27,684 nucleotides of DNA from a virus, in IMG/VR virus record IMGVR_UViG_3300025127_000203, positions 1 to 27,684 of that record. The stretch is one strand, 5' to 3'. A model generated the notes under the pieces. It searched no databases and was not told where the DNA came from. It saw nothing but the letters and a program-made list of their open reading frames with translations. Below are positions 1,708 through 17,198 of this stretch, piece after piece. The position numbers and the translations under genes were made by a program. Each line of letters starts with the position of its first letter. Position 1 is the first letter of the stretch.

Positions 1708-2418
1708 ATGGCATTACCTAAATTAAATACCCCAAAATTTAAAATGAAACTACCGTCAGACGGTAGAACTGTTAACTTTAGACCATTTCTTGTAAAAGAA
1801 GAAAAAATTCTTCTTATTGCTACTGAAACAGGTGATCAGGATAGCATGGTTAACGCTATCAAAGACATTATTATGGCATGTACTGACATTAAGGACGTGG
1901 ATGCACTTCCTACATTTGATATTGAATTTGTATTCCTACAGATTAGAACAAAATCTGTTGGTGAATCAGTTGAAGTCGGTGTAACTTGCCCTGATGATGA
2001 CGAGACCGAAGTAAAGGTTAATATTCCTTTAGATGAAATTAAAGTGAAGAAAACCAGAGGTCACAGTAAAGAAGTGAAATTAGATGGCGATATTACCCTT
2101 ACAATGGGATATCCTAGTCTTGATACATTTGTTAAAATGAACTTTGCTGGCGAGCAAGTTGGTGTTGATCAAGTATTTGAAATGGCAGCAAGTTGTATTC
2201 AAACTGTAGCAGATGCTGAACAGGTATATGAATGCAAAGACTTACCTAAAGATGACATTATGGCATTTTTGGAGGGTATGACTTCTAACCAGTTCAAAAA
2301 AGTTCAAGACTTCTTTGAAACTATGCCTAAACTAGAGCATACAGTAGAAGTTGAGAATCCAAATACTAAAAAGAAGAGTGAAATCAAACTCGAAGGTCTA
2401 GCGGCTTTTTTCGGATAG
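1708..2418 (+). CDS. 26: gp26 baseplate hub protein (T4_baseplate family)
   Basis: The 236-residue protein matches the T4 gp26 family, Pfam T4_baseplate. It has the family's N-terminal pattern NFRPFLVKEEKILLIA (residues 23-38), a CPDDDE segment that may be a degenerate metal-binding loop, and a helical C-terminal half ending LEGLAAFFG. T4 gp26 is needed for hub assembly, and recent T4 baseplate structures suggest it is not a major component of the mature hub, which would fit a chaperone role. The last codons contain a slippery run just before the stop, and the -1 frame continues into gp51. Two products are therefore expected: this one and a 300-residue fusion. It lies directly before the tape-measure-like genes. 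Confidence 0.9.
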   Translation: MALPKLNTPKFKMKLPSDGRTVNFRPFLVKEEKILLIATETGDQDSMVNAIKDIIMACTDIKDVDALPTFDIEFVFLQIRTKSVGESVEVGVTCPDDDETEVKVNIPLDEIKVKKTRGHSKEVKLDGDITLTMGYPSLDTFVKMNFAGEQVGVDQVFEMAASCIQTVADAEQVYECKDLPKDDIMAFLEGMTSNQFKKVQDFFETMPKLEHTVEVENPNTKKKSEIKLEGLAAFFG

Positions 2419-2443
2419 CACTTCTTCATGCCACTTTGAAGAA
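2406..2443 (+). promoter_or_regulatory. Probable programmed -1 ribosomal frameshift signal (gp26 to gp51)
   Basis: The heptamer T TTT TTC occupies 2406-2412, in phase with the gp26 codons TTT (2407) and TTC (2410), so it fits the X XXY YYZ rule. The gp26 stop TAG is at 2416-2418, two codons later. A perfect 7-bp inverted repeat, TTCTTCA (2422-2428) with TGAAGAA (2437-2443) and an 8-nt loop, starts 9 nt after the heptamer, a usual place for a stimulatory hairpin. After slippage, reading resumes at CGG (2412) and continues to the stop at 2607. All of this is seen directly; frameshifting itself is inferred. Confidence 0.75.
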
Positions 2444-2609
2444 TTATTATGATACAAATTTTGCTCTAATTCATCATCATAAATGGCAAATCGAGTATAT
2501 TGAAAACTTGATGCCTTGGGAAAAGGAAATTTATGTGAATTTATTAGTACAGTTCTTAGAGGAAGAGCAAAAACGCATGAGAGATCAAGAAGCAAAATCA
2601 AATGGCTAG
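2412..2609 (+). CDS. 51: gp51-like hub assembly protein, expressed as a gp26 fusion by -1 frameshift
   Basis: A 65-codon frame, offset -1 from gp26, runs from the slippery site to TAG at 2607-2609 and overlaps the start of the next gene. It encodes a compact helical segment with HHHKWQIEYIENLMPWEKEI and LLVQFLEEEQKRM, typical of the short cyanophage proteins annotated as gp51, the hub assembly catalyst. The only ATG in frame (2511) falls inside the conserved core, and no good alternative start with a ribosome site is visible (TTG 2436 is the best). Expression as the C-terminal extension of gp26, giving about 300 residues in total, is the simplest reading. T4 gp51 is much longer, so homology to T4 gp51 itself is uncertain. 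Confidence 0.7.
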   Translation, partial: RIALLHATLKNYYDTNFALIHHHKWQIEYIENLMPWEKEIYVNLLVQFLEEEQKRMRDQEAKSNG

Positions 2610-5600
2610 AATAAGTGCCTATAAATTTGTTAGTCCCATAGCTGGTGGCAGTAATAAGTCACCTACAGTTGCTGCAGCTTCACGAAATCTTGTTGCACTT
2701 AATAATATTGGATTTTCTTTAACTGGTATAGCCAATACTGTTAACGATTTACATAGAATATCATTATTAACAGTAAAGAATGATAAACTAAGAGAGATAG
2801 CAGAGCGTAGAAGAGCTCAGAGAGAAAAAGATAGATTAGCGGAAGAAGAACTAGAAAATCGTAAAATTTTAAGAGGTTCAGCTAGTGTATATAAGAAGCA
2901 AGGAGAGAAAGGATTAAATAAACTAAAAAGAGCTCCTTGGGTAGATAAGTTACTAGATGGTATATTCGGTCCTTTTAAAGGTTTAGTAACTGCCCTCCTA
3001 GCTTTTGTAGGTAAAATATTTGCTTTTGCTGTCACCAGAGAGTTGATGGTATTTGTAGCAAATCCCGAAAATAAAAAGCAGATGATAACGTTCTTAGAAA
3101 GAACTGCTTTTGTTATACGGAAATTATATGATTTTACAAAATGGTTAGTTAAAGATAAATTTTTAGACGGATTCGCTTCGTTAACAGGAGAAGGTAATAC
3201 ATTTGGAGAAAGATTAAAAGGATTAGGAGATCTTTTAATAGGGATCACAACTTTGGGTGCTTTATTAAATCCATTTGGATTGATTGATGGTATTTTAAGA
3301 CTTCTTGGGATGGATTTCTACAGACCTGATCCAGGTGCGGTAGATGGTTACAATACTTCTAATATTAAAAATAAGAATTCAAAAACGATAAAGAATAAAA
3401 ATATAAAAAATAGAAGTATTAGTAATAAGGTAAATTATAACACAAAAGCTGGTTCTACTTTTAAGTTAGAGGCAACCAGAAAACTTAATATGATGAATAA
3501 GCTCGCACCTGAGGGTTTTAGGTGGGATGCAAAAGCAAACAAATATGTCTCTAAAGGTCCTGCTTTAATAAATGCAAATCAACCTAAAGGAAACATTACT
3601 AGCAAAGGTATAACAAGAATACCTCAAAGAGGTCTTATAAAACTTCTTGGAAAGAACGGTGCAGCGACTGTAAAAAATATCTTTAAGGGTTTCGGACAAA
3701 GAATACCTTGGATGGGTGGTTTATTCACTGCAATATATTCAATGATGAATGGTGATCCCATTGGGATGACCTTATTCAAGTCTTTAGGTTCTCTAGCAGG
3801 TGGAGCTTTAGGAACATTCTTACCTATTCCATTCTTAGGATCAATATTGGGTATGTATGCAGGTGAATATGTTGGTGAATTACTTTATATGGGATTCAAT
3901 GGTAGTTCACCTGGTCAAATTGCAGAAAAAGTTAAAGCAGATTTTGTTGCTGCCTATAAGACTGCACTTCGAGGTGGTCAGATGGCACTTAACTGGATAG
4001 GAGGTACATTCAAAAGATTTTATGCAGGTATACCTAAATGGAAAATACCTGAGTTTCCTGGATGGGCAAAGTGGGCTGACTTTTTAAACATTGGTGGTAG
4101 AGAAATACCTGATCTTTTATGGTTAGCAAGTGGAGCTGTAGGTAACTTAGCTCCATTGAAGATGCTTTTAAAAGCAGCATTTAGTAGTGATCCAATTCCA
4201 AAAGGATCAATGAAAAAATATACCTTACCTAATTTCAATCGTGAGGGTGAAGGTAGTCCTGGAACTACAGGAAGAAGGCAAGAAATAGTTGATAGGAGAG
4301 TTGCAGCTGCAAATGCTCTCACTATGCCATACAGTGATAAGAAAAAATATAAGGCAAATCAGATTGTATATAAATCTGGTTTCATGGGATATAATAAAAA
4401 ATATTATATCTTTGATGGATTTGGGATTGGTGCTGTATCAATGGCAAATCCTCTTACTGCTAAGAACTTTAGAACTGATGCAGAATATGAAGCATTCCAA
4501 GCTGCAGGTGGCACTAAAAGATTGCTTGAAGGTGGTATTACACCAGAAGAAATGGTTACTAAGGGTAGGAAATTACTCAATAAATCAAATATAGTAGCTA
4601 CACCTACAGTTAATGACACTACAAAGAAAGAAGGGACATATAAGGACGGTGTACAAGTTATAAATGGAGAAGTAGTAGAAGTTAAAAATGGAGAAATAGT
4701 AAAGGAACCGATACCAGGTCCTGAAGGAGATGGAACTTATGAGCAAGGATATAATGATGGATACAGAGCAGGTGTTAATGAAACTGCTGCTGGTATTCAA
4801 GCGACCAATGATATGCAGACAGATAATGCTATCAACGCAACAAAATCTGTTCTATCATCTATGGATCCTAGAGATATTCCTCCAGACCATAGTATTCTTG
4901 AGAAAGGATTTTTAAGTCCTACTTTTAAAAATAAAAACAAACCAAGTACCTTTAATCTTAGTTATGCCAACATGCCTTTTGTTCCTAATAGTGAATATAA
5001 AGGTGTAGAAACAGATAACAAAAGATACGGTAACACAATGCCAGAAGGTGCTTTTGGTATAGGATCTAAATCAACAGATTCAAAGAAAAAAGCATGGTGG
5101 GATCCACTTGGTGTCTTTACAGGTAAATCTATTGGAGGCATGGTTCCAGCTAGATTGAAAGGTGCATCTACTGGTAAGAGTTTCTTCTTTGGTGGTATTA
5201 TTAGAGGTATTACTAAGGCAGTTGGTGGTGTATTTAATGGTATTAAAAAGGCAGTTACTGGTATAGTTCAATCTCCTATCTTTAATATTGCTAGTACAAT
5301 ATTATCATTCACTCCTCTTGCTCCTATTGTTGCAGGTGTTCAAGCTGTCGCAGGTTTGGTCTCTGGTAATCCAATGCAAATGCTTAGTAGTGCATTTAGT
5401 CTTGGATCAACATTCTTCCCACAAACATTTTCAAATATTACCAGTGGTATAAACAATACATTTGGTAAGGTTCTTGGTGGTGGTATAAATGGATTCCTCT
5501 CAGGAGGACTACAAGGTGCTATGGGTGGATTGATGGGAGGCATACAAGGAATGTTACCTCAAGGAGTTCAAAACTTCTTTGGTAGAGTCGGTGGGTTTAT

Positions 5601-6060
5601 TGAAAAATTCCCATCAGTAGGTGGATTAATTAATGCGATACCTGGTGTTGCAAACATACCAGGATTAGCAGGTCTATTTGGTTTACAGGATTTTGGTGGT
5701 ATGCAATTTAATCCTATGAACATGTTCCAAGATATGGCTAATAACTTTGGTCTTGGAGGATTGTTTAGATCCATAACTGGTATGATGCAAGGTGAAGGAG
5801 GATTTATGGATGGAATGATTGATATGGCAGCAGAACTTGGTGTTAATCCGTCAGTCTTAGGTGTATCTCGACCTTTAGGAAGCACTCTCGGAAGAAATAT
5901 GGCAGACTCTTCAAGAGAGTATGCTATGCAAACTTCATTAGAATTCATTCCTATTCCTGTAATTATTGAAAAACTAACACCAATTCCTAAGCCAGTTCCA
6001 ATAAATACTCCAGTGCCCGTAAAACAACCAGCACCACCACAGCAACAAGAGAAGAAATAA
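2602..6060 (+). CDS. Tape-measure-like tail protein 1
   Basis: This 1152-residue protein is not recognised by a T4 name. Its place (straight after gp26/gp51, before the hub genes), size and composition suggest a tape-measure or inner-tail protein. The N-terminus has YKFVSP and NNIG, then a charged helix with ERRRAQREKDRLAEEE (about 66-85). Hydrophobic stretches lie near residues 122-148, 209-235 and 390-430, with a long Gly-rich hydrophobic region (about 860-1020) that could insert into membrane. The C-terminus is rich in Pro and Gln (about 1115-1152). The first 240 residues resemble those of the next gene, so the two look like ancient tandem duplicates. The start overlaps the end of the gp51 frame. 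T4's tape measure gp29 is far shorter. Confidence 0.7.
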   Translation: MARISAYKFVSPIAGGSNKSPTVAAASRNLVALNNIGFSLTGIANTVNDLHRISLLTVKNDKLREIAERRRAQREKDRLAEEELENRKILRGSASVYKKQGEKGLNKLKRAPWVDKLLDGIFGPFKGLVTALLAFVGKIFAFAVTRELMVFVANPENKKQMITFLERTAFVIRKLYDFTKWLVKDKFLDGFASLTGEGNTFGERLKGLGDLLIGITTLGALLNPFGLIDGILRLLGMDFYRPDPGAVDGYNTSNIKNKNSKTIKNKNIKNRSISNKVNYNTKAGSTFKLEATRKLNMMNKLAPEGFRWDAKANKYVSKGPALINANQPKGNITSKGITRIPQRGLIKLLGKNGAATVKNIFKGFGQRIPWMGGLFTAIYSMMNGDPIGMTLFKSLGSLAGGALGTFLPIPFLGSILGMYAGEYVGELLYMGFNGSSPGQIAEKVKADFVAAYKTALRGGQMALNWIGGTFKRFYAGIPKWKIPEFPGWAKWADFLNIGGREIPDLLWLASGAVGNLAPLKMLLKAAFSSDPIPKGSMKKYTLPNFNREGEGSPGTTGRRQEIVDRRVAAANALTMPYSDKKKYKANQIVYKSGFMGYNKKYYIFDGFGIGAVSMANPLTAKNFRTDAEYEAFQAAGGTKRLLEGGITPEEMVTKGRKLLNKSNIVATPTVNDTTKKEGTYKDGVQVINGEVVEVKNGEIVKEPIPGPEGDGTYEQGYNDGYRAGVNETAAGIQATNDMQTDNAINATKSVLSSMDPRDIPPDHSILEKGFLSPTFKNKNKPSTFNLSYANMPFVPNSEYKGVETDNKRYGNTMPEGAFGIGSKSTDSKKKAWWDPLGVFTGKSIGGMVPARLKGASTGKSFFFGGIIRGITKAVGGVFNGIKKAVTGIVQSPIFNIASTILSFTPLAPIVAGVQAVAGLVSGNPMQMLSSAFSLGSTFFPQTFSNITSGINNTFGKVLGGGINGFLSGGLQGAMGGLMGGIQGMLPQGVQNFFGRVGGFIEKFPSVGGLINAIPGVANIPGLAGLFGLQDFGGMQFNPMNMFQDMANNFGLGGLFRSITGMMQGEGGFMDGMIDMAAELGVNPSVLGVSRPLGSTLGRNMADSSREYAMQTSLEFIPIPVIIEKLTPIPKPVPINTPVPVKQPAPPQQQEKK

Positions 6061-9000
6061 ATGGCAGTAACTAAAACTACCAAAATCAATATGTATAAAC
6101 TGGTCTCGACGCAAGGCATCCAGACCAGAAATAATGCTACTGCGAGTGCGTTGGTTAAGAATGTACAGGCAATTAATAATATTGGAAAGACTTTAAATTC
6201 TGTATCTCTTGTATTAAAAGATATCAAGAAAATTGAACTTGATAGATTAGATGCAGAAAAGAAAAGAAGAATAAAAGAATCATTCGTTCCTCGATATACA
6301 AAACAAGAAGGAATAGGAGCATCAAAATTTATTAGTGACTTTGTTGCGAAACCCCCTAAGTCTTTTTGGGAATCATTATTACAGACATTCAGTGGATTAA
6401 TTAAATTATTTGTTATAAGACCTATTCTTAAATGGTTATCTAACAAAGAAAACCTTAAAAAAGTTGAAGATGGATTAAAAGTACTCTACAAAGCTATAAA
6501 ATTCCTATTCAATTTATCAAAGAGTATAGTTGGAACGACAATAAATGGACTGTACGATTTGCTGCGAGCAGATGCCAAATGGTATGAACGATTGTCGGGA
6601 TTTGGTAAAGTCTTTGGAATGTTGGGTGGACTATTCCTTGGATTGCGATGGTTAAAGAATCCAGGCAAATTAATTAGAGATGTAAGATTTGTATTAGGAG
6701 GATTCCGTAAAGGTTTACTTCGTTCTCAGAATCAACTAAGAATGCAAAGAGGTATGAAACCTTTACCTGGTGCTGGTAAAGTTAAAGTACCTAGAACTAA
6801 ATTTAGAGGCAGAGGTTGGGCTGGTTTAGTATTCATTAGTGGTATTGGTTTAGTTAATGTTCTTAGTGGTGAATCAGTTGAAGAAACTACACCAGAAATG
6901 GCAAAAGGTGGTTGGATATCTGGTCCTCAAGGAGGTTATCCAGTATCTACCAGAGGTAGAAAAGGAGCTGCTCCTGATTTCATAGGTCATGGAACTGAAT
7001 ATGTTGCAAAGAAAGATACTGGAGAATCATTCGTAATACCATTTGATACACCAGCGACTAGAGTTGCACCTAGCCTAACAATGGCTAACATGCAAACTGC
7101 TTCTATGTTAGGTTTCGATGTTCCCGATTCACCTCCAAGAATTAGCAATAATGGAATGTTCTTGGGTGGAGTATTTAAAGGTATAGGAAATGTCTTTAGT
7201 GGAAAGACATGGGGTGGAATGAATAAAGGGACAGGAAGAGATGGAACTTTTGGATCTGGAACTTGGGGATCAGGAAGACCAAGTGACGGAGATATTGGAA
7301 AATCTACTGGTGGTGGAACAAATTGGCTTAGTGGTCTTGGAAAAGGATTAATAGCTGCTGCACCAGATATAGGACAACTTATTGGTGGAGATAAAGGTGG
7401 TAGTATTGGTAGTATGATAGGTGGCTTTGCAAATCAGATGCAAAGTGGTGAAAAAATGTCATTTGGTAATGTTCTTGGGAATATATTACCTATTGCAGGT
7501 CAGTTCTTAGGTCCTAAGGCAAGTGGAATCATGGGCAATGTTTTGGGCATTGGTAACATGTTCTTTGGTCCGAACGCAGGTAATTACTCGTTTGGCGATA
7601 AGATCATGGGAGTACTGGATGGATTCGGTATGAGTGATAGTCCAATCGGTAGAATTATTGGTAATGTCTCTGGTGCAATGACTGGATTACAAAGTTCAAT
7701 AGCAGGTAGTAGTGGATTTGGAGGGGGAAGCGGTGGTGGTGGAGCTGCAGCTGCTGCAGGTTTATCAGCTACACCAAATGTTGATACTGATGATGAGAAA
7801 AATTATGGAAAAGGAAATCCTGCAGTATCTGGTGGTGGTATCGGAGCAGCGATTAGAGGTGGACAATGGGCATTAGGAAAAGGATTTACAGTAAGTGAAC
7901 ATCGTAATTTTAGAAATAATAAATGGAATAAGTTTACTGCTAACACAGGAAAGGGATTTGTTGCAGGTGGTGGACAAAAAATGGGTAAACATGCTAAAGA
8001 TAGTCTTCATACTAGAGGACTAGCATTAGATGTTACTGATTACAGAGATGGTGATTTTAGAAGTAGAATTGGATCTCTAGCAGGTGAAGCATATGGAATG
8101 AGAAAGGCATTGAATCTTACACAGATCATTCATGATGGTTGGGGTGCATGGTTTGGTGGTAAGAAACGAGGTCCAGGATCATATGGTCATCCTTCACATA
8201 TGCATATGGGATTTGCTGATGAAAAAATACCTGGTGGAGAAGCAGGTGGTATTGGTTTGAGTGGTACTGATATGAATTTATTAGGTCAGTATGTTTCTGC
8301 AGAATCAAAAGGTGCTACTCCTTTAGAATCTGCATTGATTGCTAGATCTGCTGTCAATGCTGGTGGTGCATATGCTTCTGGTCAAAGTCCAAGTTTATTT
8401 GGTGCACCAGGTGCTAGTAGTTTCTTTGATATACTTGATTCGCAGTCAACTAATTCAAATTGGTATGGAGCTCCTTTAGGTGGTGCAGACACAGCAAAGG
8501 CATTTGGAGCTATAAATCTAGGATTGAATACTGATAAGATGTATGATTTCTTAGGAAATGCAGGAATGCCAGATTCATTCTCAAACTTATTCTTAAACTC
8601 TACAGAAGCTAAGAGAGGAACTGGATTAAACAAAGGAACACCTTTTGGCAAATTTACTTTTAGTACTGGTGGTAGCACTTATTATGATAAGGCAGTTAAA
8701 AATTTAGGTGCTGACTTTAATCCATTCGCTAAAAATGATAAAGGTGTTGGATCAGACGCATTTGGTTTTGGTGGTCTTGATATGCCTAGTTTAGCAGGTA
8801 AAGCAGAAGGGACTGCTACATCATATGGTGGAACTCAAGGTGGAACTCAAAAACCAGGTGGTAATCTTGCTGCAATGTATACAGCAAATCAAAAAGGAGA
8901 GAACCATGGTGGTCCTGAAGGAACAAAAGATAAAGGTAGAAATGCATACGCATTCCAAAAGGTAACAAGAGAAAGAGAATATGCTAGAAGTCAATTACAA

Positions 9001-9216
9001 CAAAAACATAGTCAGATGTTGCAACAGACTATTGCACAAGTTCAAGCACATAACGCATCTGTTAGAGCATCAGTAGCACAAGCACAAAGTGCTATAAGTC
9101 AAATTATGGGATCTCAAGCTGCTGCTATGGGAACCATCAGTGGTCTTGGTGGTAAAGTTCAGAGAACTGCTGCTACTCTAACTTCCATAAATTCTACAGC
9201 AGCCTTCTTAGCATAA
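6061..9216 (+). CDS. Tape-measure-like tail protein 2 with M15/LAS zinc-peptidase domain
   Basis: This 1051-residue protein starts directly after the previous stop. Its N-terminus (YKLVS, NNIG, then NKENLKKV and a hydrophobic run near 180-198) parallels the upstream paralogue. A GGWISGPQGGYPVS segment precedes FIGHGTEYVA (about 307-316), and a Gly-rich region covers about 360-560. Residues about 605-720 carry the signature of LAS/M15 peptidases: S648-L-H650-T-R-G653-L-A655-L-D657 matches SxHxxGxAxD, and S712-H713-M-H715 supplies the HxH motif. H650, D657 and H715 are the predicted zinc ligands. Known members cut peptidoglycan peptides (DD-carboxypeptidases, endolysins). The C-terminus (about 970-1025) is a Gln/Ala-rich probable coiled coil. 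A role in opening the host wall during DNA entry is inferred. Confidence 0.75.
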   Translation: MAVTKTTKINMYKLVSTQGIQTRNNATASALVKNVQAINNIGKTLNSVSLVLKDIKKIELDRLDAEKKRRIKESFVPRYTKQEGIGASKFISDFVAKPPKSFWESLLQTFSGLIKLFVIRPILKWLSNKENLKKVEDGLKVLYKAIKFLFNLSKSIVGTTINGLYDLLRADAKWYERLSGFGKVFGMLGGLFLGLRWLKNPGKLIRDVRFVLGGFRKGLLRSQNQLRMQRGMKPLPGAGKVKVPRTKFRGRGWAGLVFISGIGLVNVLSGESVEETTPEMAKGGWISGPQGGYPVSTRGRKGAAPDFIGHGTEYVAKKDTGESFVIPFDTPATRVAPSLTMANMQTASMLGFDVPDSPPRISNNGMFLGGVFKGIGNVFSGKTWGGMNKGTGRDGTFGSGTWGSGRPSDGDIGKSTGGGTNWLSGLGKGLIAAAPDIGQLIGGDKGGSIGSMIGGFANQMQSGEKMSFGNVLGNILPIAGQFLGPKASGIMGNVLGIGNMFFGPNAGNYSFGDKIMGVLDGFGMSDSPIGRIIGNVSGAMTGLQSSIAGSSGFGGGSGGGGAAAAAGLSATPNVDTDDEKNYGKGNPAVSGGGIGAAIRGGQWALGKGFTVSEHRNFRNNKWNKFTANTGKGFVAGGGQKMGKHAKDSLHTRGLALDVTDYRDGDFRSRIGSLAGEAYGMRKALNLTQIIHDGWGAWFGGKKRGPGSYGHPSHMHMGFADEKIPGGEAGGIGLSGTDMNLLGQYVSAESKGATPLESALIARSAVNAGGAYASGQSPSLFGAPGASSFFDILDSQSTNSNWYGAPLGGADTAKAFGAINLGLNTDKMYDFLGNAGMPDSFSNLFLNSTEAKRGTGLNKGTPFGKFTFSTGGSTYYDKAVKNLGADFNPFAKNDKGVGSDAFGFGGLDMPSLAGKAEGTATSYGGTQGGTQKPGGNLAAMYTANQKGENHGGPEGTKDKGRNAYAFQKVTREREYARSQLQQKHSQMLQQTIAQVQAHNASVRASVAQAQSAISQIMGSQAAAMGTISGLGGKVQRTAATLTSINSTAAFLA

Positions 9217-10661: not shown

Positions 10662-10889
10662 ATGAAAACAATAGAAGAACACATCCAAAAAGATCACGAA
10701 ATCTTAGACAATCCAATGGCATCACCTGCAGCACGCAGACATGCTAAAGTCGAATTACATGAACTGGAAGTTTACGCAGAGCATCATCACGATGAAATCG
10801 AAGCAGGAGATCACCATGATCCTAATGCATTAGAACTATTTTGTGAAATGCATCCAGATGAGCCAGAATGTTTAGTGTATGACGATTAG
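10662..10889 (+). CDS. cp12: CP12-like Calvin cycle inhibitor
   Basis: This 75-residue acidic, His-rich protein ends with ELFCEMHPDEPECLVYDD, which closely fits the C-terminal GAPDH-binding motif of cyanobacterial CP12 (Cys-x8-Cys then R/L-x-Y-D-D). C61 and C70 would form the redox disulfide. The N-terminal Cys pair of many host CP12s is absent, as I recall for phage versions. Host CP12 clamps GAPDH and phosphoribulokinase when oxidised and slows carbon fixation; phage CP12 is thought to steer carbon toward the pentose phosphate pathway and NADPH for nucleotide synthesis. It has a GAGGT ribosome site 5 nt upstream, a late promoter, and an 11-nt overlap with cpeT. It points to a cyanobacterial host. 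Confidence 0.85.
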   Translation: MKTIEEHIQKDHEILDNPMASPAARRHAKVELHELEVYAEHHHDEIEAGDHHDPNALELFCEMHPDEPECLVYDD

Positions 10890-11352
10890 CTTTGATGATG
10901 CACTTTTAGGTCATTGGACAAACAGACACCAAGCACAATCTAATCCTTTAGGATTTGCTTCCGTAGAATTAGAATGGGGTATAGACTACAGCGATGTAGA
11001 TCAAATTTGGTATACGTCAAAAAACTATTATAGAAAAGAGGGTCCTAACAAACCTTATCGGAGTGGGAGACACAAAATGTCTCTTATAAGGGGGGACTCT
11101 TTTTTAATGGAAAATTACAGTGAAGATGGAACTAAAAGACAAGGATGCGATATGTTATTTGTCGAGATCAATGGCAAATGGGAAGGCAGATTATTCGCAG
11201 AGGGACAATGTGTTATGGGTGGTGCTATAGTTAGTTCACACATGATACTATTTGGAGATAAATTACACAGTGCGGATCAAGGAAGAGATGAGCATGGTAA
11301 TTTAATTTGGGGTACTGATCATTTTTATAAGTTCACGAGACTTGCTAAATAA
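10879..11352 (+). CDS. cpeT: CpeT-family phycobiliprotein lyase
   Basis: The 157-residue protein carries the ordered motifs of the CpeT/CpcT family: HWTNRHQAQSNP (12-23), the PYR triad (59-61), MENYS (77-81), GCD (89-91), a Cys in GQCVMG (109-114), and a C-terminal DQGRD...WGTDHFYKF. T-type lyases attach bilin chromophores to specific cysteines of phycobiliproteins. Phage-encoded CpeT is known in cyanomyoviruses, though phage copies may bind bilin without full lyase activity. The length is slightly shorter than host enzymes (about 200). It overlaps cp12 by 11 nt, so the two are probably translated together. Its target would be the host's phycoerythrin or other residual phycobiliprotein. Confidence 0.85.
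   Translation: MTISFDDALLGHWTNRHQAQSNPLGFASVELEWGIDYSDVDQIWYTSKNYYRKEGPNKPYRSGRHKMSLIRGDSFLMENYSEDGTKRQGCDMLFVEINGKWEGRLFAEGQCVMGGAIVSSHMILFGDKLHSADQGRDEHGNLIWGTDHFYKFTRLAK
11345..11351 (+). promoter_or_regulatory. Late promoter CTAAATA upstream of gp5
   Basis: CTAAATAA lies within the last codons of cpeT and ends 19 nt before the gp5 ATG, the same geometry as the other late promoters. A second AT-rich element, TATAAGTA (11362-11369), is too close to the ATG to serve. Confidence 0.5.
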
Positions 11353-14513: not shown

Positions 14514-14631
14514 AAAAGAACAAAAGAGGACATTGAAACCTCAAGCACTTCGTCGTGCTAAAAGACGATTACAAGCACTCAAAGCAAAACTTCATTATGG
14601 TAACACCAATCAAAGTAACATCTTTAGATAG
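14482..14631 (+). CDS. Small very basic protein
   Basis: Function not recognised. This 49-codon frame starts at ATG 14482 with GAAGGA (14469-14474) 7 nt upstream, one of the better ribosome sites in the region. The peptide begins MKIPNWQHHSRKEQKR and continues with a Lys/Arg/Leu-rich helix, LRRAKRRLQALKAKL. Such composition suits binding to RNA, DNA or an acidic protein. It overlaps the end of the 83-residue gene and the start of the oxygenase gene, each in a different frame, which fills what would otherwise be a gap. The strong ribosome site and lack of another gene in 14514-14596 support it. Confidence 0.55.
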   Translation: MKIPNWQHHSRKEQKRTLKPQALRRAKRRLQALKAKLHYGNTNQSNIFR

Positions 14632-15253
14632 TACACCTGCACTAGGACAAGAACCATTTAAGAAAGCACTATTCCCAATAAACCCTTTCTTTCATTTTCC
14701 TGCAGTAAACGCAACTGAATTTATAGCAAAAATTAAATCTATTCCAAGAGAACCTCAGAATGAAAAATTTCTGTGGGGAACTAGAAGTAAGTGTGACAAA
14801 TATTTGTGTGAAGATATAGAAGAGTGGGTTCCTTTTTGGAGAGATAATTTAAGATATTTTACGGACAGATTAGGACAAGAAGGTTCTCTTCATTGTGGAT
14901 TTCATTATAGACCATATCAACCTTGGATTAATTGGTATAGTCGTGGAAACTTTCAAGAAATGCACGATCATAACGAACATGATTTAGTTGGTGTATTCTT
15001 TGCTGAAGTACCTGAGGATGGTGCTAAATTTTATTTTGAAGATAGAACTTTCCCCATGCTCTCAATGCCTTGGAGATATATGTTAAACTTAGGTAGTGCA
15101 TTCTTCCCTAAGATTAAAAGTGGTGATATTGTTTTATTTCCTGGTCATATGTTTCATGGAGTCACTCCACATGAGAGTGATGAAGTTAGAATTACAATGT
15201 CTGCCAACTTCGATCTTAAGGTTGAAGATGAACAACCTCTGAATGCTAGATGA
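14597..15253 (+). CDS. 2OG-Fe(II) oxygenase-like protein (2OG-FeII_Oxy_5 type)
   Basis: From ATG 14597 the product has 218 residues. An upstream in-frame GTG (14555) would add 14 residues lying wholly within the basic small gene, so the ATG is preferred. The core pattern of the family is visible: INWYSRGNFQEMHDHNEHD with H123-D-H125 as metal-site residues, GDIVLFPGHMFHGVTPH with H187 as the distal histidine, and R198 in EVRITMSANF as the 2-oxoglutarate carboxylate anchor. Enzymes of this fold hydroxylate proteins, nucleic acids or small molecules using Fe(II), O2 and 2-oxoglutarate. The substrate is unknown. It overlaps the next oxygenase gene by 4 nt. Confidence 0.75.
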   Translation: MVTPIKVTSLDSTPALGQEPFKKALFPINPFFHFPAVNATEFIAKIKSIPREPQNEKFLWGTRSKCDKYLCEDIEEWVPFWRDNLRYFTDRLGQEGSLHCGFHYRPYQPWINWYSRGNFQEMHDHNEHDLVGVFFAEVPEDGAKFYFEDRTFPMLSMPWRYMLNLGSAFFPKIKSGDIVLFPGHMFHGVTPHESDEVRITMSANFDLKVEDEQPLNAR

Positions 15254-15846
15254 CAGTAAAACTTAAAATCGTTGATAATTTTCTACCTAGTGGTGATTAT
15301 CATCAAATCAAAGAACATTTAATAGACAAACCAGACATTCCTTTTAATTTTTATGAGGGAAAAGTATATGGGAAAGATGCAAATAAAAATTTGCAAGACT
15401 CTCACATGTGTCATGCTTTTTATCATTTGAATAGGTTTCCAGCAGAACCTACAGCAAGTCAATATTTGGGTCTTTTGTTACCTATTATTGCTCGTTGTAG
15501 AGTCCTTGCTATTCATAGGATTAAATGTAATCTTGAATTACATGGAGGTAGTGAACCATATCAAAGTGAATATCATGTTGATTGGGAAAATGAGGAAGAT
15601 ATAAAATCCAATATGCAAGCAGGAATATATTATGTCAACACTAATAATGGTTATACAGAGTTCAAGGATGGAGAAGAAGTAAGAAAAGTTGAATCAGTTG
15701 CAAATAGAATGGTATTTTTTGATGCAGAACTTTCACATAGAGGAGTCTCAGCAACTGATACTAGATATAGATGTGTAATAAATTTTAATTGGTTTACTTG
15801 GTCAAACTATTATAAATTTGATCAGAATTTCGATACCTACTACTAA
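15250..15846 (+). CDS. 2OG-Fe(II) oxygenase (prolyl-hydroxylase-like)
   Basis: The 198-residue protein carries a clear HxD...H facial triad: YHVDWE with H109 and D111, and ELSHRGVS with H163; R174 in RYRCVINFNW is the likely 2-oxoglutarate anchor. The double-stranded β-helix strands LELHGGSEP, QAGIYYVNTN and NRMVFFDAE surround these. It is closer to P4H-like phage oxygenases than to the preceding gene, so this is not a simple duplication of that one. It overlaps the upstream gene by ATGA. The substrate is unknown; protein or structural-component hydroxylation is a guess. Confidence 0.8.
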   Translation: MTVKLKIVDNFLPSGDYHQIKEHLIDKPDIPFNFYEGKVYGKDANKNLQDSHMCHAFYHLNRFPAEPTASQYLGLLLPIIARCRVLAIHRIKCNLELHGGSEPYQSEYHVDWENEEDIKSNMQAGIYYVNTNNGYTEFKDGEEVRKVESVANRMVFFDAELSHRGVSATDTRYRCVINFNWFTWSNYYKFDQNFDTYY

Positions 15847-15859
15847 CCTACATAAAAAC

Positions 15860-15899
15860 GAGGGAGTACAAAAGATCTCTACTTAGAAAGAGTGCCCTC
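15860..15899 (+). other. Imperfect stem-loop in the leader of the third oxygenase gene
   Basis: In the 72-nt gap between two oxygenase genes, GAGGG (15860-15864) can pair with CCCTC (15895-15899), and inside it CTCT (15877-15880) with AGAG (15889-15892). The two short stems are separated by unpaired bases. There is no U-tract, so it is not a typical terminator. It may be leader structure or an RNA processing site, or chance. Confidence 0.3.
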
Positions 15900-15918
15900 C
15901 ATACATATTATTTTCATT

Positions 15919-16527
15919 ATGTTTCAACCTATTATTCAAGAAAATTTTCTCGATAAATTTTACTTCCAATACCTAGATGATTGGGTTCATAGTTATGCTA
16001 TCGAGTGGAAATTTAACAAAAACGTTTCTAAGCACCTCGCTACAATAGGTGAGTTAAAGGAAAACGATTTATATAAAATTGGATGCAGTAGAGGTTTATA
16101 TGACCCATCTAAAGGATTAGGATTCAATGGTAGTGAATCTGAAATGCTCATACCTGCTATTCTTAAAATGGAAGAAACATTTGTTGGTGTGCCTGCATCT
16201 TGCTGTAGAGCAAGATTAGATATGACATTCGTAACACATCATGGGGTGAAACATAATCCACATACAGATCACCCAATGCCTCATTGGACTGCCATACTAT
16301 ATTTTTCTGATACTGATGGCGATACTATCATATATAATGAAAGGAGAGATGGGATTACAAGGCATAGTCCCAACTTAGATAATGATGATGACTTGACAGA
16401 ACTGGTAAGAATAACTCCAAAGAAAAATCAACTCGTATTTTTTGATGGATTACACTATCATACAGGTCATTCCCCAACTACAACCAGTAATAGAATTTTA
16501 CTAAACGTGAATTTTAATAAGGTATAA
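15919..16527 (+). CDS. 2OG-Fe(II) oxygenase-like protein
   Basis: From ATG 15919 (MFQPIIQENF) the product has 202 residues. A GTG at 15892 would add 9 hydrophobic residues within the leader stem, so ATG is preferred, although neither has a good ribosome site. H115-T-D117 in NPHTDHPMPHW and H181 in LHYHTGHSP form the HxD...H triad, with R192 the probable 2-oxoglutarate anchor. The strand AILYFSDTDGDTIIYNE is typical of the fold. It differs clearly in sequence from the two preceding oxygenases. The stop shares bases with the next ATG (TAATG). Confidence 0.75.
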   Translation: MFQPIIQENFLDKFYFQYLDDWVHSYAIEWKFNKNVSKHLATIGELKENDLYKIGCSRGLYDPSKGLGFNGSESEMLIPAILKMEETFVGVPASCCRARLDMTFVTHHGVKHNPHTDHPMPHWTAILYFSDTDGDTIIYNERRDGITRHSPNLDNDDDLTELVRITPKKNQLVFFDGLHYHTGHSPTTTSNRILLNVNFNKV

Positions 16528-17198
16528 TGGCATTCTTAGTACACCCTCTTCCTCCTATACCTGTATTCGTTAAGAAAGAATTTCTTTACGATCATCAAAA
16601 AGGGCATGGAGAATTGACACCTGGCATTTGGATCTCAGTTAAAAGTGTTCAAGCAAAAGCACTTTACTTTGAAACTATGTTAACTGATTACGGTGCATTA
16701 TATGATAAACTACCTCTTAGTGCTTTTGTATGGACAGAAGACTTTGATAAAGATAATCAATTAGAACTAGATGTTCTTGAACTCTGGGATTGTTTTGATT
16801 ACAATATAACAGTTCTCCGTAAACCTATCTTAGGTAGATGCGAGTTCTTTGGCAAAGATAAAAAAATGCACGCTGGTGAATATGAATTTACGATTGACAC
16901 TGGGCATCCTGATCAGTCAGTTATTGATACTAACTTTTCTGAGTTGGACCCCGAACATAAGTCCTTTAATGTCATTGCCCTCGACAACGGACAATATGCA
17001 GCTCAACCAAACAACCGAGTAATTTGGAGGGATTGTAGTTTAATCCCAGATAATTTGAAGAAACCTGACTTCAAAGTTTGCACTCAGAACTACGCTGTAG
17101 AAACTGAACCTAAATGGTGGACAGTTGGACATACAGATGAGTGGCAATATAAAACAAAAGAGGAAGAGGAAGAAGAAATCGATCTTACAGGCGGTTAA
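16527..17198 (+). CDS. Conserved cyanophage protein of unknown function
   Basis: The 223-residue soluble protein is of a type I recall from many cyanomyoviruses, without known role. Features: PPIPVFVKKEFLYDHQKGHGEL near the N-terminus, GALYDKLPLSAFVW, LELWDCFDYN, and a QPNNRVIW segment, together suggesting a compact β-rich fold. The C-terminus ends in a run of Glu (KTKEEEEEEI). It follows the third oxygenase with a 1-nt overlap and precedes the structural block. No catalytic motif is evident. Confidence 0.75.
   Translation: MAFLVHPLPPIPVFVKKEFLYDHQKGHGELTPGIWISVKSVQAKALYFETMLTDYGALYDKLPLSAFVWTEDFDKDNQLELDVLELWDCFDYNITVLRKPILGRCEFFGKDKKMHAGEYEFTIDTGHPDQSVIDTNFSELDPEHKSFNVIALDNGQYAAQPNNRVIWRDCSLIPDNLKKPDFKVCTQNYAVETEPKWWTVGHTDEWQYKTKEEEEEEIDLTGG

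Follow-up and report, generated by a model that had tools for sequence, protein, structure and literature searches.

A conserved slippery site predicted to join gp26 and gp51 by −1 frameshifting in T4-like cyanophages

The gp26 and gp51 coding frames of T4-like cyanophages appear to be joined by a programmed −1 frameshift at the heptamer U UUU UUC, a reading to which we assign a probability of about 0.93. The junction was analyzed in a 27.7-kb virus record from a T4-like cyanophage (the whole stretch is called the window here) and in related loci. The original prediction had proposed a −1 frameshift joining the two genes. It is supported by conservation of the slip site, the lack of a gp51 start upstream of it, purifying selection on the −1 frame, and the architecture of T4 gp51, which is a single open reading frame. 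The architecture of the junction, its conservation, and the coding selection are read from sequence comparison, and the features are listed in Table 1.

Table 1. Features at the gp26–gp51 junction, in window coordinates.
Feature	Position	Strand	Details
gp26-like short chaperone (TAC-N)	1708..2418	+	236 aa; ATG start; TAG at 2416–2418
Candidate SD-like 5′ stimulator, GAAGG	2392..2396	+	9 nt upstream of the heptamer; GAGGG in most relatives
Slippery heptamer T TTT TTC (U UUU UUC)	2406..2412	+	Kept in 168/171 loci
Zero-frame stop TAG ending the short form	2416..2418	+	One codon past the slip
−1 frame extension, gp51 C-terminal domain (TAC-C)	2412..2609	+	65 sense codons (2412–2606) and stop (2607–2609); phrog_634, 4.9e-29
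Stem-loop, candidate 3′ stimulator	2422..2443	+	7-bp stem, TTCTTCA (2422–2428) with TGAAGAA (2437–2443); 8-nt loop

The gp26 product of the window matches PF12322 (T4_baseplate, 2.9e-76) and phrog_150 (5.6e-87) and falls into one family with T4 gp26 and the N-domain of T4 gp51. Its best relatives among the GenBank phage matches listed are from Prochlorococcus phages such as P-SSM4 (74%). An AlphaFold2 model of gp26 (pLDDT 86) has hub proteins of other phages among its fold matches. A comparison of gp26 with solved structures gave no match by sequence and no significant match by fold; the HK97 tail assembly chaperone 2ob9 is among the fold matches of the model, weakly (E 2.1, prob 0.38).

Neighbors of gp26 in the window include head closure, tail tube, and baseplate hub/lysozyme genes. 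The gene directly upstream (851–1672) matches phrog_45, a tail tube family (7e-53), and from this match the succession of tail tube and chaperone is the usual gene order. The product of the same gene is labeled a cyanophage-only structural protein in other annotations. A tail-tube gene also lies immediately 5′ of gp26 in KVP40, phiM19, and DSL-LC03, which is a siphophage-type order. The downstream gene (2602–6060), whose ATG is overlapped by the −1 frame, encodes a protein of 1152 aa with a tape-measure-like composition. Its identity as the tape measure gene is plausible and goes no further because the family match is weak (phrog_1272, 7.9e-5) and its counterparts differ in length between relatives. 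Two long genes adjoin in this part of the window (2602–9216; 1152 and 1051 aa), and their N-termini match overlapping PHROG families. Both are glycine-rich and tape-measure-like, carry an "endolysin" label in records, and either is a candidate tape measure. The 1051-aa product contains SLHTRGLALDV, which we take to resemble an M15/VanY peptidase motif. Auxiliary metabolic genes for a CpeT-like antenna protein (10879–11352) and a ferredoxin (16527–17198) occur amid the structural genes. Three neighboring genes at 14555–16527 each match phrog_274, which is labeled DNA endonuclease V, and two of the three also match 2OG-Fe(II) oxygenase families; they are probable paralogues, and the phrog_274 label is doubtful.

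The 3′ end of gp26 reads GAA GGT CTA GCG GCT TTT TTC GGA TAG, which sets T TTT TTC in X XXY YYZ phase. Direct reading confirmed, base for base, the phase and position of the heptamer and the position of the gp26 stop as originally described. Loci were gathered from IMG/VR (n = 160) and reference phages; 171 cyanophage-type loci were counted, with 119 representatives below 95% identity. These loci share ancestry, so that counts are not independent events, and all such statistics are inflated by relatedness. Aligning the junction across relatives had been proposed as a check, and the alignment shows TTTTTTC at the matching position in 168 of 171 loci. Two others have at least seven T. The sole locus without a slip site (L140, 1480–1520) is missing about 40 gp26 codons before the junction, likely through a deletion or an assembly join or error. 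A zero-frame stop lies 4 nt past the slip site in 164 of the 171.

All six T at bases −6 to −1 are invariant in the representatives (119/119). The conservation of the slip site indicates selection at the nucleotide level, not the protein level, because the amino acid preceding TTT varies (Ser, Ala, Asn, or Asp), yet the third base of its codon is T in 119/119 (baseline 53%). Likewise, the first Phe codon is TTT in 119/119 and the second is TTC in 117/119, whereas other conserved Phe columns use both codons. The frequency of the heptamer by itself was rejected as evidence: the two strands of the window together hold 13 copies of bare TTTTTTC against 11.3 expected, which is chance level. The probability that a particular gene carries an in-frame T TTT TTN among its final 10 codons is ~0.012. 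Taken alone, the window sequence is not beyond chance; together with its relatives it clearly is, and conservation is what decides.

The −1 frame extension matches phrog_634, a family whose annotation, baseplate hub assembly catalyst, denotes gp51, and at least 80% of the gp51 domain is present in 459 GenBank phage records. Fusion of gp26 residues 1–235 with the 65 codons of the extension would give a TAC-NC protein of 300 aa, and the sizes first proposed for the short and long forms (236 and 300 aa) are right. The 65-codon frame was also correctly described as having gp51 content with no ATG before its core. The first ATG in the window is codon 34, inside the core, and a TTG at codon 9 is the sole start-like codon before it. 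Upstream of the slip, no ATG, GTG, or TTG occurs in the −1 frame of any of the 171 loci, and a stop closes the frame a short way upstream. In the window's clade, pN/pS for codons 1–19 of the −1 frame is 0.25, compared with 1.35 and 2.37 for the other frames and 0.34 for gp26 itself. By these values, purifying selection acts on the −1 frame right from the beginning of the extension.

An alternative is that gp51 is translated on its own as a small protein, through termination-reinitiation at the gp26 stop or from an internal start, and that the T run is incidental. GenBank records are consistent with this reading in that they list gp51 as a gene in its own right that begins at a start codon farther downstream. 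Those starts differ in position among the records inspected, some of which omit gp51, and they cut off conserved residues; purifying selection also acts on codons that precede any start. The predicted absence of a gp51 start holds upstream of the slip in all loci; downstream of it, ATG is codon 4 in 68 of 115 representatives, nearly all from the sister clade. TAATG or TGATG overlaps are likewise found at the junction in KVP40, phiM19, Marzo, and RHph_Y68. Because the codon-4 ATG lies 2 nt after the stop, an extra, reinitiated gp51 product could also arise in the sister clade. Reinitiation does not suit the window, with its late first ATG, or the 31 of 115 representatives that have no ATG, GTG, or TTG among the first 10 codons of the −1 frame, and it leaves the nucleotide conservation of the slip site unexplained. 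We consider a solely separate gp51 improbable.

Two other explanations would join the frames by different means. Transcriptional slippage on the T6 run, in place of ribosome slippage, would draw on a homopolymer, and two relatives do have at least seven T. A run longer than six T would favor polymerase slippage, though it is found at only 2 of 170 sites, and the bacterial cases in a review use ~9 A or T (PMC5009743). The codon phase, the third-base C, and the downstream hairpin instead fit ribosomal slippage, and slippage by the polymerase is very improbable. A sequencing or assembly indel that split one continuous gp26–gp51 gene is less probable still. The continuous open reading frame of T4 gp51, which carries both domains, would make such a gene conceivable, but the frame break recurs in ~160 IMG/VR contigs and in independent isolate genomes (e.g., P-SSM4, Syn33, S-SSM7, and KVP40). 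The indel artifact was rejected as already refuted by these independently sequenced genomes. A −1 ribosomal frameshift at U UUU UUC is therefore the reading carried forward here.

The perfect 7-bp inverted repeat proposed to begin 9 nt downstream of the heptamer is present exactly as described. The hairpin in the window has a minimum free energy of −6.8 kcal/mol, whereas synonymously recoded versions give −2.1 (sd 1.2). Stems of this kind turn up in 3.6% of 42-nt segments of the sequence and in 0.27% of synonymous variants of the hairpin region, and the stem of the window alone is weak evidence. As a conserved stimulator, the exact 7-bp stem was rejected beyond close relatives. Among 115 representatives, 8 retain six or seven of its seven pairs, all of them near relatives; the stem shows no covariation, and the RNAalifold consensus is empty. 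A longer alternative stem in the window's clade (columns 17–29/39–51 of A6) was unconvincing, with 63% of cells paired and little covariation. Covariation analysis and RNAalifold supported no single stem in this clade.

Folding stability was also scanned across 85 loci, dereplicated at 85%, against a synonymous null. Stability beyond the null peaks in windows starting 3–9 nt past the slip, with mean differences at the peak of −3.0 in the window's clade and −6.8 in the sister clade. The sister clade has a stem of 10–11 bp (AGTATGGCTC...GAGTCATACT) that begins ~5 nt past the heptamer. Its pairs covary (GCT/GAG, GCA/GTG, and GCG/GCG): one side changes synonymously, the other changes an amino acid, and the pair is kept. 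Changes on both sides of this stem were found in 20 cells, compared with 7.1 in shuffles. The comparison indicates that a hairpin is selected at this place, though the exact stem differs. The expectation of a conserved hairpin thus stood for its location, with covariation in the sister clade, and failed for the exact stem, which is confined to near relatives and does not covary. Three sister-clade loci (L109, L114, and L144; +6 to +36 from the slip) have a mid-stem mismatch, with GGCACA opposite GAGTC or GCGTC. In these loci, one partner of a covarying pair may have changed recently without the other.

A Shine-Dalgarno (SD)-like element is a likely but unproven selected stimulator on the 5′ side. 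Across 115 loci, the strongest anti-SD pairing within the last 180 nt of gp26 occurs 9–10 nt before the heptamer and exceeds the synonymous null (z = −11.5, a statistic inflated by relatedness). GAG is preferred at this site (78/114 versus a 29% baseline), as are GGA and GGG. The preference for GAG is marked outside the window's clade (64/80 versus 30%) and modest inside it (14/35 versus 25%). In the window itself the effect is weak, with a duplex of −3.5 kcal/mol. The element is graded only as likely because one other among the 22 conserved Glu columns outranks it in GAG preference.

Comparison with T4 helps to explain the arrangement. T4 gp26 (208 aa) corresponds to the short form, and T4 gp51 (249 aa) is a single open reading frame with a gp26-like PF12322 N-domain followed by the gp51 C-domain (phrog_150, 13–280). 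Since T4 gp51 has both domains in one frame, T4 encodes directly what cyanophages appear to make by frameshift. T4 differs from cyanophages in having two separate, divergently oriented genes and no frameshift. Sullivan et al. 2010 (PMC3037559) described the gp51 of cyanophages and marine vibriophages as lacking about 200 residues at its N-terminus. A frameshift would explain this absence, the absent part being gp26, and the sequence evidence gives good support to reading cyanophage gp51 as the C-terminal portion of a protein fused by frameshifting. T4 gp51 is required, yet is not in the particle, and gp26 and gp51 are listed as hub assembly chaperones (PMC3004832). Beyond cyanophages, TTTTTTC also precedes the gp26 stop in KVP40, Aeromonas phage AS-zj, Stenotrophomonas phage Marzo, and Variovorax phage V45v66. 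Close variants of the heptamer occur in phiM19 and RHph_Y68, and shorter T runs in the Ackermannviridae phage SFP10 and Vibrio phages K452 and D504.

We infer the slip itself, its rate, the roles of the stimulators, and the chaperone function as follows. Most ribosomes would translate gp26 to its TAG and release the 236-aa short chaperone. On a fraction of ribosomes, tRNA-Phe in the P and A sites on U UUU UUC would re-pair one base upstream, and translation would continue for 65 codons in the −1 frame, yielding the 300-aa protein, with gp26 residues 1–235 followed by the gp51 domain. The downstream hairpin, together with the SD-like element ~10 nt upstream in most relatives, would probably make slipping more frequent. 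If the short and long forms act as gpG and gpGT do in lambda, they may cover the tape measure protein and bring in tail tube protein in a fixed ratio, readying the tape measure protein for tail tube polymerization. We tentatively suggest, with somewhat less than even confidence, a three-part dnaX-type cassette in which the heptamer is fixed, the stem-loop turns over in position and sequence, and slip efficiency is tuned per lineage.

The lambda heptamer, G GGA AAG, differs from U UUU UUC, and lambda is not known to use an SD-like element or a hairpin as stimulator. The cyanophage junction resembles lambda gpG/gpGT in that a −1 slip near the 3′ end of the short chaperone frame gives a C-terminally extended form (PMC5009743). 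Its layout resembles that of E. coli dnaX, which combines a 5′ Shine-Dalgarno stimulator, a slippery heptamer, and a 3′ stem-loop (PMC5009743), although the 5′ element of the cyanophage site is a candidate and is weak in the window. In dnaX, a slip on A AAA AAG yields a shorter product, whereas the cyanophage slip on U UUU UUC would yield a longer one. In Vandenendeviridae and Andersonviridae (Pseudomonas phage Adele, PMC12846349), GTTTTT is similarly conserved at the 3′ end of TAC-N with an uninterrupted −1 frame. These are other phage families, and their T run is shorter than that of the cyanophage site.

Frameshifting in tail chaperones is widely known. Vladimirov and colleagues reportedly identified the tail assembly chaperone genes of T4-like phages as the gp26/gp51 families. 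Frameshifting is said to be conserved in several T4-like groups in that work, with T4 using genes 26 and 51. As represented in papers that cite it, the study (Vladimirov, Gautam, and Davidson 2022, Virology 566:9–15) is a source for poly-T frameshift signals in T4-like TAC-N genes (PMC12846349) and for a strategy of separate short and fused genes in some T4-like phages (PMC10885494). The frameshift idea is not new, since these citations credit poly-T signals in T4-like phages to that study. A literature search that covered that study through papers citing it returned no paper on this slip site in cyanophages. Within the same scope, the analysis of stimulators is the part for which no earlier description was found. 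Here the frameshift signal is mapped and is found to be conserved in almost all of the cyanophage relatives compared. The cyanophage slip site would offer a conserved place for measuring ribosomal frameshifting in cyanobacteria.
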